Origin: Deltaproteobacteria bacterium
GTDB lineage: Bacteria > Desulfobacterota > GWC2-55-46
Assembly: GCA_016234405.1 (NCBI GenBank)
Contig: JACRCC010000101.1
Coordinates: 1 to 36,603 of the forward strand
Reading direction: 5' to 3'
DNA: 36,603 bases
Below are positions 5,473 through 29,792 of the stretch, one piece after another. Under the pieces are notes generated by a model. The model was given only the letters and a program-made list of their open reading frames with translations. It did no database searches and was not told where the DNA came from. Both the position numbers and the translations under genes were made by a program. How positions within the stretch are numbered: position 1 is the first letter of the stretch; each line of letters opens with the position of its first letter.

Positions 5473-7149
5473 ATGGCCAACGACAAGGGCAAAAACATAG
5501 ACCCCGCCTCTGTCCTTCAGTATCTGACGCTCTCGGACGACAAGAACCTGAACCGCCTGCTGGGCAGCGTCATTACCGAGGTCAAGGGCTATGCGGACAT
5601 CCTCATCTCCCAGATAAAGCGCTTGTCCGAGATTGGCATAGCCCTGTCTGCCGAGCGCGACCTCGACAAGCTCCTCGAGATGATAGTGGACGAGGCGAGA
5701 AGGTTCACTAACGCGGACGCGGGCACCCTCTACATCCGCGAGGGCGCGGTCCTCAAATTCAAGATACTCCAGAACGACACCCTTAAAACCCGCTTGGGCG
5801 GCACGTCGGGCAACCCCATAACGCTTCCCCCCGTCGAGATGAAAGAAACAAACGTCTCGGCCTACGTCGCCATAAAGGCGGTATCCGTGAACATCCCGGA
5901 CGTCTACGACTCGGTCCTCTTCGACTTCACCGGCCCGAAAAAATTCGACGAGGCCACTGGCTACAGGTCGCGCTCCATGCTCGTCGTGCCCATGAAAAAC
6001 CACGAGAGCGACATCATCGGCGTCTTGCAGCTATTGAACGCAAAGGAGATAAAAACCAACACGGTCGTTCAGTTCTCGAAAGACTTCGAGCTTTTGATCG
6101 AGTCGCTCGCCTCTCAAGCAGCGGTGGCCGTCACCAACGTGATGCTCATCAGGGACATAGAGAACCTCTTTGAAAGTTTCGTCATGTCAATGGCCGCGGC
6201 CATTGACGCCAAAAGCCCTTATAACGTAAGCCACACGAAAAGGGTGGCCGGGCTGACGCTCGCGGTCGCCGAGACCATAAACGCCAAAAACGACGGGCCG
6301 TTCAAGGACGTCCGCTTCACGCCGGAAGAGTTGAACGAGCTAAGGATGGCAGGCTGGCTCCACGACATCGGCAAGATTACGACCCCGGAGTGGGTGGTAA
6401 ACAAGGGGACGAAACTCGAAAAGATTATAGATAGGATAGAACTCGTGAAGACGCGCTTCGCGCACATCTCCGGTTTAAAACGAATCGCCGCGCTTTCCAA
6501 AAAGGTTGCCCTGCTCTCGTCCAAGAATAGCTCAAGCGCCGCCGAGCTTGAGAGTATAGATAAAGAACTTGAGGCCGACATTGCCCAGTTGAGAGACGAC
6601 CTTGAGTTCATCGAAAAGTCTAACAGACCCGGCGAATTCATGGAAGACGATAAACTCGCGCGTCTCTACAAAATCGCGGGCCAAACCTTCGTCGAGGACA
6701 ACGTCGAGAGGCCGTATCTTGAAAAGGACGAGTTGAAGAATCTCTCCATCCGCAAAGGCAGCATCACCGAAGAAGAACGCCTTATAATGCAGGACCACGT
6801 CTCGGTAACGGCCAAGATGCTGCGGGAAATCCCGTTCATCAAAAAACTCAAGAACGCCCCGAAGTACGCCTCCGAGCACCACGAGTGCATGAACGGCAAG
6901 GGATACCCAAAGGGGCTTAAGGCCGAAGAGCTTGACATACGCTCGCGGATACTCGCGTTGGTGGATTTCTGCGAGGCCCTCACGGCCAAGGACAGACCCT
7001 ACAAAAAGGCCATGCCCCTTGAAGTGGCCTTTAAGATTATGGGTTCAGCCGCCAATGACGGCCATCTTGACAAAGAACTCTTCGCGCTCTTCGTCGAGGA
7101 AAAGGTCTACGAGAGATACGAAAAGGCATTTGAGGGGGAAAAAAAGTAG
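5473..7149 (+). CDS. GAF and HD-GYP domain phosphohydrolase (probable cyclic-di-GMP phosphodiesterase)
   Basis: A 558-residue soluble protein. Residues about 55-225 form a GAF sensor domain. From about 235 on is an HD-GYP domain that in this family hydrolyses cyclic-di-GMP. Visible motifs are HTKR at 254-257, HDIGK at 297-301, HVSVTAKML at 442-450 and the GYP signature HHECMNGKGYP at 469-479. The usual HHER has become HHEC, but the metal-binding histidines remain. Between the HDIGK segment and the helix that normally follows it (here RKGSITEEER, about 427-436) sit roughly 110 extra residues, Lys/Glu/Ser-rich and helical in character, possibly a coiled coil. No membrane segment or response-regulator domain is seen. 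The gene is divergent from dnaE and convergent with the DtxR gene. Its TAG stop lies inside a dispersed repeat. Confidence 0.88.
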   Translation: MANDKGKNIDPASVLQYLTLSDDKNLNRLLGSVITEVKGYADILISQIKRLSEIGIALSAERDLDKLLEMIVDEARRFTNADAGTLYIREGAVLKFKILQNDTLKTRLGGTSGNPITLPPVEMKETNVSAYVAIKAVSVNIPDVYDSVLFDFTGPKKFDEATGYRSRSMLVVPMKNHESDIIGVLQLLNAKEIKTNTVVQFSKDFELLIESLASQAAVAVTNVMLIRDIENLFESFVMSMAAAIDAKSPYNVSHTKRVAGLTLAVAETINAKNDGPFKDVRFTPEELNELRMAGWLHDIGKITTPEWVVNKGTKLEKIIDRIELVKTRFAHISGLKRIAALSKKVALLSSKNSSSAAELESIDKELEADIAQLRDDLEFIEKSNRPGEFMEDDKLARLYKIAGQTFVEDNVERPYLEKDELKNLSIRKGSITEEERLIMQDHVSVTAKMLREIPFIKKLKNAPKYASEHHECMNGKGYPKGLKAEELDIRSRILALVDFCEALTAKDRPYKKAMPLEVAFKIMGSAANDGHLDKELFALFVEEKVYERYEKAFEGEKK

Positions 7150-7217
7150 CTCAGGCCTGAGTTTTTGTAGCTCAGGCCTTCAGGCCTGAGGTTATCAGGG
7201 CTAAAGCCCTGAGCTGC
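7146..7217. repeat. Tandem palindromes of the TAGCTCAGG family at a convergent gene junction
   Basis: Three palindromes follow one another: GTAGCTCAGGCCTGAG (7146-7161), TAGCTCAGGCCTTCAGGCCTGAGG (7168-7191) and TCAGGGCTAAAGCCCTGA (7195-7212). They occupy the gap between two convergent genes and run into both. The HD-GYP stop codon (7147-7149) is the TAG of the first palindrome, and the DtxR stop and last residues (SSGL) come from the third. A TTTTT run after the first palindrome could give weak termination on the plus strand. Relatives are at 17998-18103 and, partly, at 28253-28265. Confidence 0.75.
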
Positions 7218-7878
7218 CCCCCACCCTCTTCACGTAAATCTCCTTTATTATCTCAGGGTCTAACGCCAACGTCGTTTCTCCAATTTGTATGACGAAGGCC
7301 GGTCTTTTCTGGTGCACCCGGACTACGCTTCCGGGCACGATGCCCAACGTGGCGAGCCTGTCCATACGCATGTGCGAGTTCGACACGATGAATATTATCC
7401 TGCACGATTCGCCGATGCCGAGTTCGTTTATCGGCTGCACTATGGGCCTTAAATCGTCTTTCTCTTTTTTGCAGCAGGCCCCTTTCGGTATCGGAAGACC
7501 GTGAGGACAGGTCGGCGGGTGTCCGAGGAGCGTGCAGATGCTCTCCGTAACCTCCGGCGAAAGCGTATGCTCGAATCCGCATGCGCTCTCCTCGACCGAA
7601 TCAGGGTCCATTGCAAGGACTTCCGTTAAAAGCCTCTCCGCGAGCCTGTGCCTCCTTATGACGGACTCCGCGGCCAGCTCGCCCTCCGGCAAGAGGACTA
7701 CCGTGTCTCCGTTTAAGGTGACAAGCCCGTCTTTCTCCATGCGCTCAAGGGTCTTGATGTCGGCCTTTTCATCGGCCACTTCCTTTATGCCGAAAAGACC
7801 CTTTATGGAATTGCTGCCGCGCTCCCTCTCGGACCATATAAACTCCAACACTTCCTCCACCGCCCTGTCGTGCGTCAT
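7201..7878 (-). CDS. DtxR/MntR-family metal-dependent regulator with C-terminal FeoA-like domain
   Basis: A 225-residue iron- or manganese-responsive transcriptional regulator. Residues about 1-70 are the winged-helix DNA-binding domain. The dimerisation/metal-binding domain follows (VIRRHRLAERLLTEVL, then CGFEHTLSPEVTESICTLLGHP) with the family motif CPHGLPIP. Residues about 150-222 form a FeoA-like SH3 domain (INELGIGESCRI, RLATLGIVPGSVVRV, TTLALDPEIIKEIYV). The gene starts 15 bases after the feoB stop, and its GGAGGG ribosome site overlaps that stop codon, so the two are surely one transcript. No separate feoA is present here, so this domain is the only FeoA-like module beside FeoB. The last few residues are encoded by an invading palindromic repeat. 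Iron is the likely co-repressor because of the neighbours. Confidence 0.88.
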   Translation of the reverse strand: MTHDRAVEEVLEFIWSERERGSNSIKGLFGIKEVADEKADIKTLERMEKDGLVTLNGDTVVLLPEGELAAESVIRRHRLAERLLTEVLAMDPDSVEESACGFEHTLSPEVTESICTLLGHPPTCPHGLPIPKGACCKKEKDDLRPIVQPINELGIGESCRIIFIVSNSHMRMDRLATLGIVPGSVVRVHQKRPAFVIQIGETTLALDPEIIKEIYVKRVGGSSGL

Positions 7879-10449: not shown

Positions 10450-10525
10450 TGGAGCGGGAGACGGGTCTCGAACCCGCGACCTCAACCTTGGCAAGGTTGC
10501 GCTCTACCAACTGAGCTACTCCCGC
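10450..10525 (-). tRNA. tRNA-Gly (GCC)
   Basis: A 76-base cloverleaf read on the minus strand. Acceptor stem GCGGGAG pairs with CTCCCGC; the D-arm contains AGCTCAGTTGGTAGAGC; the anticodon stem CAACC/GGTTG encloses TTGCCAA, giving anticodon GCC; the T-arm has GGTTCGAGACC. The 3' CCA is encoded (10452-10450). A TTGACA hexamer on the minus strand at 10571-10566 is a likely -35, but the matching -10 (around 10543-10549) is weak. Confidence 0.95.
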
Positions 10526-10578
10526 AATGCGAATGGTCTTGAGATTTATCATAACGGCAAAAACGTGTCAAGGGATTA

Positions 10579-10654
10579 TTCCACAGCGCCACTTTGCATC
10601 ACGAAAGCATGTCGTTTAATAAATCACACCGTGCAGCAAAGTGGCGCTGGGGAA
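10579..10654. repeat. Inverted repeat CAGCGCCACTTT family, copy 1
   Basis: CAGCGCCACTTTGC (10584-10597) is matched perfectly by GCAAAGTGGCGCTG (10636-10649). The match continues outward to TTCC/GGAA with one mismatch. The loop is about 38 bases. The same arm sequence forms a longer hairpin at 12964-13047, and a lone half is at 31975-31990. It sits between the tRNA gene and the ABC transporter, with no coding frame, so it looks like a small non-autonomous palindromic element. Confidence 0.7.
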
Positions 10655-10728
10655 AAAAACCCTTGACCGCGATTTCGGAATATAGGATATATTACAGGAT
10701 ACGGTTATTTCAACGGCATCGTCACACT

Positions 10729-12963: not shown

Positions 12964-13047
12964 GCGGAGCGCCCAGCGCCACTTTCCGTTGTCGAGGTTG
13001 TGCAGGTTAATAAGACCAGCGCCGGAAAGTGGCGCTGGGCGCTCCGC
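12964..13047. repeat. Long inverted repeat CAGCGCCACTTT family, copy 2
   Basis: Perfect 25-base arms at 12964-12988 and 13023-13047 flank a 34-base loop. The inner part of each arm (CAGCGCCACTTT/AAAGTGGCGCTG) is shared with the element at 10579-10654; the outer part (GCGGAGCGCC) is not. There is no reading frame. The element ends 5 bases before the -35 hexamer of the MntA/HepT promoter, so it may insulate that pair from the upstream gene. Confidence 0.75.
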
Positions 13048-16808: not shown

Positions 16809-17975
16809 ATGGAAAAGGTAGTTTTAAAAAGGACTTCGAGGATAATCGCGGGACACCCGTGGGTATTCTCAAACGAACTTTTACGCTCGCCCAAAATCTT
16901 CGAGTCTGGCGCGCTTGTCGAAGTTTATGGTAAGGACGGCGTATTTTTTGGCATCGGATACGTCAACCCGCAAACCTTAATCGCCATAAGAATCCTTACG
17001 CGCAAGAGAGAGGAAATAGACGCCGGATTTTTTAAAAGACGCATATCGGCTGCGCTCTCATACAGACAGCGATTTTTCGAGGACCGGGATTCATTCCGCG
17101 CGGTATTCAGCGAAGGGGATTTTCTTCCGGGTCTGATAGTTGACAAATACGCAGGGTGCGTCTCGGTTCAGATGCTGACCGCCGGCATGGAAAAACTCTC
17201 GGAAATAGCGCTTGAGGCAATCGCAGACGTCTTAAAACCTTCCGTTGTTGTTTTGCGGAACGACTCGAACTCGCGCGGCCTCGAAGGGCTTCCGCTCGAA
17301 AAAAAGGTCGTATTGGGTTCCATCGAGACGTTACCGGTCATTAAAGACAACGACGCGGTCTTTGAGGTTGACCCCATGTCAGGGCAGAAGACCGGCTTTT
17401 TCCTTGACCAAGCGGCCAACAGAAGGGCATTTGCGGAATTGGCCGGGTCAGGGACGACTGCGCTTGATCTGTTCTGTTACACCGGCGCATGGGCAGTAAC
17501 CCTCGCTAAAAAAGGGGTCTCGGTAATCGGCGTTGACTCTTCCGTTGGCGCGATAGCCCAAGCGCAAAGGAACGCGGAGTTGAACGGGGTAAACGGGAGA
17601 TGCTCTTTTGTCAAGGCGGATGTCTTTGATTTCGTAAAAAACGAGGTTAAGGAAAACCGTAGATACGACTGCATAGTCCTCGACCCTCCGGCCTTCGTTA
17701 AAAGCAAGGCAAATCTCAGGGAGGCCGCGCGCGCATACAGGGAGATAAACGCCGCGTGCATGAAACTCGTGAAAAAAAACGGCCTCCTTGCCACGTCGTC
17801 CTGCTCATATCACATGGATAAGGCGTTGTTTACGGATACGCTGCGTTTGTCCGCAAAGGACGCGGGCAAAACCGTGAGGCTGATAGAAGCCCGCTCCCAA
17901 TCCCCGGACCATCCCATCCTTCTCCGCTGCCCTGAGACCGAATACTTGAAGTGTTTCATATTGGAAGTTTCGTGA
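16809..17975 (+). CDS. rlmI: RlmI-like 23S rRNA (cytosine-C5)-methyltransferase
   Basis: A 388-residue SAM-dependent methyltransferase of the RlmI family, whose E. coli member makes m5C1962 in 23S rRNA. An N-terminal PUA domain (about 1-75, with GHPWVFSNEL) is followed by a linker and the Rossmann methyltransferase domain: motif I DLFCYTGAWAVTLAKKG, motif IV VLDPPAFVKSK, and TSSCSYHM with the Cys expected of m5C enzymes. The C-terminus DHPILLRCPETEYLKCFIL is typical. ATG 16809 gives the full PUA domain; AGGA lies about 10 bases upstream. The gene is divergent from the acyl-CoA synthetase fusion. The exact target base is inferred from the family. Confidence 0.9.
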   Translation: MEKVVLKRTSRIIAGHPWVFSNELLRSPKIFESGALVEVYGKDGVFFGIGYVNPQTLIAIRILTRKREEIDAGFFKRRISAALSYRQRFFEDRDSFRAVFSEGDFLPGLIVDKYAGCVSVQMLTAGMEKLSEIALEAIADVLKPSVVVLRNDSNSRGLEGLPLEKKVVLGSIETLPVIKDNDAVFEVDPMSGQKTGFFLDQAANRRAFAELAGSGTTALDLFCYTGAWAVTLAKKGVSVIGVDSSVGAIAQAQRNAELNGVNGRCSFVKADVFDFVKNEVKENRRYDCIVLDPPAFVKSKANLREAARAYREINAACMKLVKKNGLLATSSCSYHMDKALFTDTLRLSAKDAGKTVRLIEARSQSPDHPILLRCPETEYLKCFILEVS

Positions 17976-17997: not shown

Positions 17998-18103
17998 GCA
18001 GCTCAGACCTTTAGGTCTGATTATATCAGGGCAGCCCCCACCCTGCCCTCCCCCATAAAGGGGGAGGGGAAAAAGGAATTGCTCATCTAAGCCCTGAGCT
18101 ACA
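17998..18103. repeat. TAGCTCAGG-family palindromes with a nested CCCTCCCC repeat
   Basis: GCAGCTCAGACCTTTAGGTCTGA (17998-18020) is one palindrome. Next, TATCAGGGC (18024-18032) and TAAGCCCTGAGCTACA (18088-18103) are the two halves of the palindrome seen whole at 7193-7217, separated here by 55 bases. Those 55 bases contain CCCCCACCCTGCCCTCCCCC, ATAAA and GGGGGAGGGG, closely similar to 11505-11541. So one repeat appears to have landed in another. The stop codon of the permease gene (TAG, 18101-18099) lies in the right half. Confidence 0.7.
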
Positions 18104-19361
18104 TACTACCCGCTAACGTGAGGTATATCCAGTAGACAAACGTATTTATTATCGTTATCGGTATCCCTGCCCTTGCGAATTCCAAAAACGTCAGCGTATG
18201 ACCCCTCTTCTCCGCGTTCTGGATGACGATGATATTGCTGGCTGCCCCGAGGATAAAAAGATTTCCGGCTATGGTGCTGCCTGCGGCAAGGGCCATCATC
18301 GCGGAAGGGGCGGCCGTCCCTCCGCCTGAGAGCGCCGGCAGATACAAGGAGACGAACGGGACGTTAGAGAGGATTTGACTCAAAACCACGCTCGATATAA
18401 GAACCACTCCGGTTGAATTCACGCCCCCCTTCCAAACAGCCATTAAAGACTGAAACGCGCCGGACGTCCAAACCGAATCCATCAGAACGAACATGGCCGC
18501 AAAAAAGACGAGCGTGTGCCAGTCAATCGCCTTTACGACCTCGAACCTCCTCCTGCTGCCAATGAGTATCGGCATGGCCGCGGCTATTGCAATGTAGCTG
18601 AGCCTTATATCAAATGGGATAATCCCTTGAAACGCGGTCTTTACGATTATAAGGACGGCCAAGACAATAAGAGATACCTTGCAAAGAAACGCCGTCTGCG
18701 GGTCGGACAACGCGTCTTTCGAGGTGTCAAGCGGGTTTGAGTGAAAATCGGATTTATAGATGAGCCGCAATGCGGCATAGACCACGCCGAGGTTTATAAC
18801 CGTCGGGACCGCTAAATATTTCAAAAACGTCGTAAACGGGTCTGCGATATTTCCGTCAAGGGCGATAATAAGATTTTGCGGGTTGCCTATCGGACTCATC
18901 ACGCTGCCAGTTGTTACGGCGAAACAAAGCGTCAAGAGGAGAAGTTTGGCTGAAATCCGTTGCCGTTCGGCGTAAAATAACGCAAGCGGCGCGCCGATTA
19001 CGGCGAGCGTGTCGTTCATGAGGATGGCCGAGAGAAAACCGATTACAAAGAGCATCAGAAAGACAAGCTCTCCGGTGCTGCGCGCGTCTTTGAACGCCTC
19101 ATGGAATACGTGATAGAGATAACCGCTTTTGACCATCGCCTCTCCGACCACGAACATCCCCAAGAGAAAAACCATCACGTCGGGGTTTATGGAATGGAGC
19201 GCCTTTTGCGGAGAACTGACGCCGGTGAATAAGACCGCGCACGCGCCCCCGAGCATTATCTGTGAGAGTTTTAGCCTTATGCCGCCAATCTGCCTGAAGG
19301 CGGTAAGGGTGAATACGCAGGCAAGGACTATGAGGGGGAAATAATTATTGAAAAAAGGCAC
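18099..19361 (-). CDS. ArsB/SLC13-like anion permease
   Basis: A 420-residue inner-membrane protein of the ion transporter superfamily (ArsB, NhaD, CitMHS and SLC13 groups). I count about ten to eleven hydrophobic segments in two halves. The helical-hairpin signatures are visible: LSAILMNDTLAVIGAPLAL and SPIGNPQNLII in the first half, and the mirrored SNVPFVSLYLPAL and ILGAASNIIVIQNAEKRG in the second. Such proteins move organic or inorganic anions, or exchange sodium and protons; substrate cannot be read here and no ars genes are adjacent. The start is GTG 19361, chosen because the first membrane helix begins at about residue 8. The stop is supplied by a palindromic repeat. Confidence 0.8.
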   Translation of the reverse strand: MPFFNNYFPLIVLACVFTLTAFRQIGGIRLKLSQIMLGGACAVLFTGVSSPQKALHSINPDVMVFLLGMFVVGEAMVKSGYLYHVFHEAFKDARSTGELVFLMLFVIGFLSAILMNDTLAVIGAPLALFYAERQRISAKLLLLTLCFAVTTGSVMSPIGNPQNLIIALDGNIADPFTTFLKYLAVPTVINLGVVYAALRLIYKSDFHSNPLDTSKDALSDPQTAFLCKVSLIVLAVLIIVKTAFQGIIPFDIRLSYIAIAAAMPILIGSRRRFEVVKAIDWHTLVFFAAMFVLMDSVWTSGAFQSLMAVWKGGVNSTGVVLISSVVLSQILSNVPFVSLYLPALSGGGTAAPSAMMALAAGSTIAGNLFILGAASNIIVIQNAEKRGHTLTFLEFARAGIPITIINTFVYWIYLTLAGSM

Positions 19362-28081: not shown

Positions 28082-28252
28082 TGCAGGATGGGTGAAGCCC
28101 ATTCGCTAAGTTTATCCTGAAGAGTTGCGAACGGGATCAGGGTAAACTCCGCGCACCCATCAAAACATTATCGTTCCCACGCTCCGGCGTGGGAACGCAG
28201 TGTTGAGTCTGTTGCCCGCGTCGCCGCGAGGCGCGCGCTTGACCCAACCTAC
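28082..28252. repeat. Composite repeat with GTAGG(A/T)TGGGT-like ends, long copy
   Basis: Starts GCAGGATGGGTGAAGCCCAT and ends GACCCAACCTAC, whose complement GTAGGTTGGGTC mirrors the start. The short copy is at 29701-29792. The long copy has extra palindromes inside: TTTATCCTGA/TCAGGGTAAA (28111-28146) and CGTTCCCACGC/GCGTGGGAACG (28172-28197). The latter has perfect 11-base arms and is the best copy of the family at 754-778. So this is a repeat with other repeats inserted into it. Confidence 0.7.
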
Positions 28253-28264
28253 AGCCCTAAGCTA

Positions 28265-28349
28265 CAAATATTTTTTGAACCACGCTGCGGCGAGTTTCGC
28301 GGTCTCTTCAAGCGCGCCGGGTTCCTCGAATAGGCGCGGCGGCGCCGGG
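28265..28349 (-). pseudogene. Copied 3' fragment of the dienelactone-hydrolase-like gene
   Basis: About 85 bases match the 3' end of the hydrolase gene at 28995-29079 with a handful of differences and one extra base. Read on the minus strand they encode a PGALEETAKLAAAWFKKYL-like end and then stop at TAG. Upstream of the match the frame does not continue. It follows directly after the composite repeat and a scrap of the TAGCTCAGG repeat, so it looks like a recombination relic. Confidence 0.75.
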
Positions 28350-28982: not shown

Positions 28983-29675
28983 TTACAAAGGCGTCAAATA
29001 TTTTTTGAACCACGCTGCGGCGAGTTTCGCGGCCTCTTCAAGCGCGCCGGGTTCTTCAAATAGGTGCGTGGCGCCGGGCACTATAACGAGTTCTTTTTCG
29101 GCGCGCAGGAGATTATAGGCGCGCCTGTTAAGCTCTATCACAACGTCGTCCCTTCCGCCCACGATGAGCAGCGTTGGAGCAGTTACCTTGGGCAGATACC
29201 GCTCGGCCAAGTCGGGTCTGCCTCCCCTTGAGACAATCGCGCCTATCGCGTCTCCCGCGGAGACCGACGCCTGCAGGGCGGCTGCCGCGCCGGTGGACGC
29301 GCCGAAATACCCAATCTTCAGCTTTTTAGTCCTGTCGTCTTCCATGAGAAAGTCCGTTGCGGTCTTGAGCCTTGCCGTAAGAAGATTTATGTCGAAGCGC
29401 GTCTCGTAGTCAATGTCTTCATCCCGTGTAAGTAGATCAATGAGGAGCGTGGCAAGTCCGGCTTTTTTCAAAACGTCCGCCACGTAGTTATTCCTCGGGC
29501 TGTGGCGCGAACTTCCGCTGCCGTGGGCAAATAACACAATGCCCTTTGCGCCGGCAGGGACGCATAGAGCCCCTTCAAGCCTGACCGTCGCGGAGGGGAT
29601 GACCCTCCCTGCCCCTGCCATTATTGAAGCGGCCTCGATGAAGACAATATCTTCAGTTGCGCTTACGAGTCTCAT
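28983..29675 (-). CDS. Dienelactone-hydrolase-like alpha/beta hydrolase
   Basis: A 230-residue alpha/beta hydrolase of the dienelactone-hydrolase/DeoC-associated type. The oxyanion turn is LFAHGSGSSRHSPRN; the nucleophile elbow is GYFGASTGAAAAL, with Ser in GASTG; the acid is in VGGRDDVV; the catalytic His is in GATHLFEEPGAL. All three are present, so the enzyme should be active on an ester or lactone. The start ATG 29675 lacks a clear ribosome site; an ATG 18 codons later is possible. Such genes often accompany phosphoribosyltransferases, but none is adjacent. The 3' end of this gene has been copied to 28265-28349. Confidence 0.82.
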   Translation of the reverse strand: MRLVSATEDIVFIEAASIMAGAGRVIPSATVRLEGALCVPAGAKGIVLFAHGSGSSRHSPRNNYVADVLKKAGLATLLIDLLTRDEDIDYETRFDINLLTARLKTATDFLMEDDRTKKLKIGYFGASTGAAAALQASVSAGDAIGAIVSRGGRPDLAERYLPKVTAPTLLIVGGRDDVVIELNRRAYNLLRAEKELVIVPGATHLFEEPGALEEAAKLAAAWFKKYLTPL

Positions 29676-29700: not shown

Positions 29701-29792
29701 GTAGGATGGGTGAAGCCCATTCGCAACGCTTCCACGTAAACTCCGCGCACCCATCAAAAATTGTTGGGTCCGCTGCGCTTGACCCAACCTAC
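29701..29792. repeat. Composite repeat with GTAGGATGGGT/ACCCAACCTAC ends, short copy
   Basis: Ninety-two bases starting GTAGGATGGGTGAAGCCCAT and ending GACCCAACCTAC. The ends are inverted with one mismatch. Inside are TTGGGTC/GACCCAA (29764-29787) and the shared block GTAAACTCCGCGCACCCATC. It lacks the extra palindromes of the copy at 28082-28252. It lies between the hydrolase gene and wrbA. Confidence 0.75.

Follow-up and report, generated by a model that had tools for sequence, protein, structure and literature searches.

Palindromic repeats on TAG stop codons: GTAG-tagged REPINs that seem to have landed on existing gene ends

In the window, by which we mean the whole stretch of 36,603 nucleotides analysed, two palindromic repeat arrays adjoin the 3' ends of four genes, and three of these genes end inside repeat sequence, which raises the question of whether the repeats supplied the stop codons or came to rest on stops that were already there. 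The first array follows a GAF/HD-GYP gene (5473-7149, + strand; Pfam HD_5, HD and GAF), whose stop codon TAG (7147-7149) opens TAGCTCAGG and is the TAG of a GTAG tetranucleotide, the foot of the repeat. This foot (7146-7149) and CTCAGGCCTGAG make up a shortened REP (7146-7161, +), which is separated by TTTTT from a complete 51-nt REPIN (7167-7217, +) composed of a left foot GTAG (7167-7170), the hairpins CTCAGGCCTTCAGGCCTGAG (7171-7190) and TCAGGGCTAAAGCCCTGA (7195-7212), and a degenerate right foot, GCAG on the - strand (7217-7214). A DtxR-like repressor gene (7201-7878, -; Pfam Fe_dep_repr_C and FeoA) enters this REPIN from the other side, its last codons, AGC TCA GGG CTT TAG (7215-7201), being repeat sequence. 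The second array is a REPIN on the - strand (17998-18102) with the foot GTAG at 18102-18099 (-) and the foot GCAG at its other end (17998-18001, +). A CitMHS-type permease gene (18099-19361, -; Pfam CitMHS) ends on its GTAG foot, the stop TAG (18101-18099) opening TAGCTCAGGGC, while on the opposite side a gene that is presumably methyltransferase-like, judging by its sequence (16809-17975, +), is not fused and carries its own TGA stop 22 nt before the REPIN. About 56 nt of a different palindrome (approximately 18033-18088; TTAGATGAGCAATTCC...CCCTCCCCC) split one hairpin of the second REPIN, and the beginning of this palindrome also comes after the REP foot elsewhere in the genome, at several sites. 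The sequence-only reading of this DNA had located the HD-GYP and permease stops correctly and had rightly placed the DtxR terminus (...GGSSGL-TAG) inside the first array, but the DtxR stop is a TAG inside the hairpin and not that of the foot, which is GCAG there; likewise, three gene ends do lie in repeats, but its "three of three junctions" leaves out the methyltransferase-like gene.

These repeats belong to the GTAG-tagged REPs and often occur in head-to-head pairs, as 51-nt REPINs with GTAG pointing outward. In the genome of the window (G000; 2,041,213 bases in 106 contigs), TAGCTCAGGSC was found in 155 copies, compared with 10 for a reversed-pattern control, and merging copies no more than 300 nt apart gave 98 sites, a high copy number and a dispersal typical of GTAG-tagged REPs. 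A G precedes the TAG in 152 of the 155 copies, so the "TAG" is part of a GTAG foot. The same tetranucleotide emerged beside the short stem-loop from a hairpin scan blind to the foot, which reads each hairpin on both strands: GTAG led with 165 of 388 strand readings, followed by GCAG with 17. Regarding placement, 118 copies were intergenic, 6 overlapped or lay inside a gene, and 31 coincided exactly with the stop codon of a called gene, whereas at the level of sites 71 lay between co-directional genes, 12 between convergent genes, 4 between divergent genes, and 11 at contig ends, again the mostly intergenic, co-directional or convergent placement of this class of repeats. Among the 44 REPINs found in the fetched stretches of G000, two REPs face each other at a near-constant distance, 51 nt being the commonest length (21/44); the remaining copies occur singly, in tandem, or with an interruption. 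Behind the gene ends at L082, L109, L128, and L138, half-REPs are repeated in tandem with a period of 12, 13, or 19 nt, and at L082 the period of 12 puts a second TAG in frame, the last residues of the gene, QLRP, being coded by the repeat. Two other origins were considered and rejected. A classical transposon with target duplication does not fit, as no excess of 2-5 nt direct repeats was found at the ends of 44 REPINs in G000 and 32 in a related genome, G010. A tRNA origin was discarded as well: the window match of TAGCTCAGG at 10510 lies in a tRNA-Gly gene, and the repeats are not tRNAs. The window additionally holds another palindrome family with AGCGCCACTTT arms (10576-10657 and 12964-13047), and two arms of this kind enclose a REPIN at L153; two 74-nt direct repeats (28265-28338 and 28995-29068), 95% identical, suggest a duplicated gene fragment.

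The fusion of repeat and stop codon is confirmed as a real and genome-wide feature. Fused stops account for 31 of the 98 sites (32%), and a further 39 copies begin 0-57 nt after a same-strand stop, a background of 0.67 per nt that is over-estimated because the inner copies of arrays are included; against this background the Poisson probability of 31 fused copies is about 1e-40. The earlier proposal that the fusions are not random is thus upheld, and the distances from copies to the nearest stop that it had called for show a sharp spike at the stop itself, 31 copies compared with at most 0.67 per nt over the following 58 nt. The foot-blind hairpin scan gave the same picture at gene ends, with 22 gene ends falling precisely on the foot, 6 lying in the second frame, and 0 in the third. 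That the spike merely reflects short-word chance or wrong gene calls is extremely improbable: the genes around the copies were predicted with our own dicodon-scoring caller, which is non-standard, and a small number of the fused genes encode only 60-66 aa, yet the caller agrees with the open reading frame list for the three window gene ends, the reversed pattern reaches only a small fraction of the true count, and fused genes with relatives end at matching residues. The sequence-only reading had offered, as one option, that selection removed insertions elsewhere in genes, and this part fits the data: divergent gaps are avoided (4 of 98 repeat sites compared with 17 of 126 repeat-free gaps of at least 40 nt), and the two REPINs found inside called genes of G000 cause no stop, both being read in their sole open frame. 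One of these two genes is the large L121:175-2233 (G000 C63), where the REPIN codes ...TQAFRPDSIRAKALSYV... and for which the sampled stretches contained no useful relative.

Whether the stop was supplied by the repeat or already present was addressed by comparing gene ends with those in sampled stretches of relatives. The 39 other genomes searched for the repeat include no congener of the window's genome, and so offer no empty site of a fused copy from within the genus. To count as fused, a gene had to end in a TAG that leads into a REP stem with no more than one mismatch, which gave 35 genes, 15 of them with a sampled relative (two of the 15 relatives, L150 and L141, being doubtful); L092, with one mismatch and no hairpin seen, was dropped, and including it the numbers are 36 and 16. 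Unfused genes with a 3' gap of at least 40 nt served as controls (n = 57). All 15 fused genes end within 3 residues of their relative, compared with 44 of the 57 controls (P = 0.057), and the compared relatives carry no REP at the fused sites. Truncation or extension as the general cause is rejected for these 15 genes, and the idea that the repeat provided the stop or altered the gene end found no support for most fused genes. Since the fused genes with relatives mostly keep normal ends, the repeats seem to have come down on pre-existing stops. For two genes this can be followed to the nucleotide: in L148 the last 19 nt, GTAG included, are identical to L291 of genome G003, and in L126 the last 9 nt are shared with L293 of the same genome, which belongs to another genus and has 0 matches to GTAGCTCAGGSC. 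Repeat-free relatives ending at the same residue with the same TAG are the very observation that the sequence-only reading had named as evidence against its idea.

The codons used by the relatives are only suggestive. TAG was found in the relatives of 7 of 15 fused genes and 13 of 57 controls (P = 0.068), and GTAG in 4 of 15 and 4 of 57 (P = 0.053), with the TAG comparison having been run several times under changing filters; earlier versions against all unfused genes gave 6/14 compared with 17/91 (P = 0.05) and, with another filter, 8/16 compared with 16/89 (P = 0.009). The excess of TAG is not specific, because TAG is also frequent, at 9 of 19, in the relatives of genes that have a repeat close by without fusion. 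A different reading, to which we give a clear minority of the probability, is that the REPIN always brings its own GTAG and inserts regardless of any GTAG at the target, copies at gene ends surviving through the clean TAG of the foot, so that the repeat supplies the stop. Consistent with it, the relatives of L151 and L096 close with AAG-TAA at an unchanged final residue, L094 falls short of its relatives by 2-3 residues, and the permease and DtxR stops derive from repeat sequence. However, if entry were random and only one of the three frames yielded TAG, reaching 31 cases at the observed density would require truncations spread over tens of codons, and none of the 15 relatives exceeds its fused gene by more than 3 residues; entry in the second frame would cost only 4-6 residues, yet it accounts for 6 cases compared with 22; and the stops of L148 and L126 are older than the repeat.

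The C-termini of the three window genes were likewise compared with relatives, an alignment that the sequence-only reading had proposed, and small shifts were found in two of them. For DtxR, 22 of 23 other loci reach the end, a set that includes L319 and L320 with inner stops and L301, for which a nominal difference of -8 arises because its alignment overruns the stop; 21 of the 22 stop 5 residues before the window protein and one stops 3 before. Their stop is TAG in 16 of 22, 10 of these being GTAG. The relatives stop at the start of the repeat. Where their genes end, the window reads GTG GGG GGC AGC TCA GGG CTT TAG; the site of their stop codon lies 2 nt ahead of the damaged foot, and the predicted protein runs 5 residues into the repeat. 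Of 23 permease relatives, 22 could be followed to the end: 16 are 2-3 residues shorter there than the window protein, 1 ends at the same position, and 5 continue for two more residues, with TAG as the stop in 8, 6 of them GTAG. In the permease, a GGGTAG precedes the foot TAG by 6 nt in another frame, and the foot may therefore act as a back-up stop. For the HD-GYP gene, a search of 29 other family genomes gave no full-length relative; of 43 distant loci read to the end, the full-length ones show differences of -9 to +19, a spread that favors neither reading, and loci of Syntrophomonas and Pelotomaculum share 47-50% identity with it. The combination of this identity with the missing full-length family relative suggests that the gene was transferred.

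The element can nevertheless carry GTAG with it. The other gene with an internal REPIN, presumably rlmN-like, judging by a sequence motif (L136:1562-2635; G000 C76:3490-4563), contains an in-frame REPIN of 54 nt, or 18 codons, between the flanks AAT and AAC, coding VAQGFSPENLRPKGLSCN. The insert is absent from all 22 readable relatives (of 23 loci), and GTAG or CTAC occurs within 36 nt in only 2 of the 22, in none of them at the insertion site, so at least this copy brought its own GTAG inside the 54-nt insert. The rule that GTAG is a target only is excluded by this case, with which a mere preference for sites already holding GTAG is compatible and which also argues for the reading that the repeat supplies the stop, as does the report that RAYTs need the foot (PMC8266576). 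A model in which every non-coding GTAG, stops included, is equally likely to be hit predicts about 15% of sites at stops in G000, where the observed 31 of 98 is about twice that share (P = 4e-5); in G010, 12% is expected, and the 3 fused in about 65 sites seen are less than half of it (P = 0.03). The model gives the right order and not the exact share.

A second GTAG-REP family, GTAGGWTGGGTS, is present in 51 copies in G000 with another hairpin and the same GTAG foot, and 3 of its 43 examined copies are fused with a TAG stop; as a family with a different hairpin is also fused, the effect follows the foot. Copies of this family also occur in the window at 28241-28252 (-), 29701-29712 (+), and 29781-29792 (-), as well as in L031. 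The one RAYT (Y1_Tnp) gene found in G000 (C2:27727-28089; 204.4 bits with NCBIfam REP_Tyr_transpos, cut-off 80) is flanked by GTAGGWTGGGTS repeats; the CTCAGG family does not flank it as in a REPtron, its nearest copy being about 2.8 kb away. Such an arrangement was found in G010, of the same family and another genus, where a RAYT gene (C88:23476-23805; 98.5 bits with the same model and cut-off) has GTAGCTCAGGGC / CGCAGGCC repeats on both sides. Among the 39 other genomes, only G010 holds many matches to GTAGCTCAGGSC (87), the rest having 0 to 5; the three matches in G018, a congener of G010, have no second arm and look like chance words. Of the 79 copies examined in G010, 3 were fused, 3 overlapped genes, and 73 were intergenic.

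The fused copies might also be kept by selection, if a hairpin on the stop tuned the gene through disturbed termination or mRNA protection, an explanation that we find improbable. The RNA of the first array is predicted to fold stably (-31.4 kcal/mol, z -4.62 for 7164-7217; -37.9 kcal/mol, z -4.37 for 7147-7217, from the HD-GYP stop onward), E. coli REPs lying no more than 15 nt from a stop reportedly reduce translation (cited in PMC12306157), and by analogy a hairpin placed directly on the stop could slow termination. Against such a role, the host genes are unrelated, the compared relatives have no REP at the fused sites, copy number varies widely between genera, and feet and hairpins decay at some sites.

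The explanation that we favor somewhat is that these are ordinary REPINs which often join existing GTAGs, stop codons included. The repeats are of the kind moved by RAYT single-strand transposases, their movement here being putative, and we infer that REPINs would join the chromosome preferentially at a pre-existing GTAG, through either guide pairing or a microhomology of four bases. Where the last codon ends in G and a TAG stop comes next, a GTAG site would be ready-made in one of the few places within a gene where insertion is harmless, and such stops would consequently fill up. If the foot later decayed (GTAG to GCAG) or a small frameshift arose, translation would continue for a few codons into the hairpin, as may have happened in DtxR and probably in the permease. 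Several points count against this explanation: the GTAG of the rlmN-like insert came with the element, the relatives of L151 and L096 use TAA, the TAG excess is unspecific, the shares of the free-GTAG model are inexact, and published RAYT work puts GTAG in the element as a guide (PMC8266576). The broader proposal, that insertion is drawn to chromosomal GTAG and makes NNG-TAG a safe harbor inside genes, with elements colonizing one class of stop codons over time and decaying feet adding short repeat-coded tails to proteins, is put forward tentatively, at somewhat less than even probability.

When compared to known systems, our repeats resemble the GTAG-tagged REPs of Di Nocera et al. 2013 (PMC3733652) in their short, GC-rich hairpin with a one-sided GTAG, their high copy number, the occurrence of head-to-head dimers, and a mostly intergenic location between co-directional or convergent genes, the CTCAGGCC / CTCAGGGC hairpin being likened by description rather than by a match to the 24 families of that paper. 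The relevant section of PMC3733652 states that GTAG-REP ends "often provide" the TAG stops of flanking ORFs (the paper calls TAG opal), REPs inside genes are reported as well, and the section itself includes neither a count of fused stops nor a comparison with repeat-free relatives, both of which are given here. In the limited literature collection searched, no title or abstract treated stop codons as landing sites of REPs. As in the REPINs described by Bertels and Rainey in 2011 (PMC3116915), two inverted REPs form one unit, here of 51 nt, and a REP family lies beside a RAYT gene, here in the related genome; unlike them, the one RAYT gene in the window's genome is flanked by another GTAG-REP family. 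With IS200/IS605 elements and RAYT (TnpAREP) (PMC6006769, PMC8266576), our repeats share a tetranucleotide beside the hairpin foot, here GTAG, that occupies the place of the guide, whereas the parts of those papers drawn on here place cleavage at CT or CA and describe no preference for chromosomal GTAG. The REPIN in the rlmN-like gene, an in-frame insert in a conserved gene, recalls the rickettsial palindromic elements mentioned in PMC3733652, from which it differs in its tag, GTAG and not CGTC. The kind of arrangement is thus already known, as GTAG-REPs that provide TAG stops (PMC3733652), and the new point, on its cause, is modest: a remark in the literature becomes a counted effect, a stop brought by the repeat is separated from a repeat landing on a stop, and stop codons would offer a readable record of where RAYT-linked repeats choose to insert.
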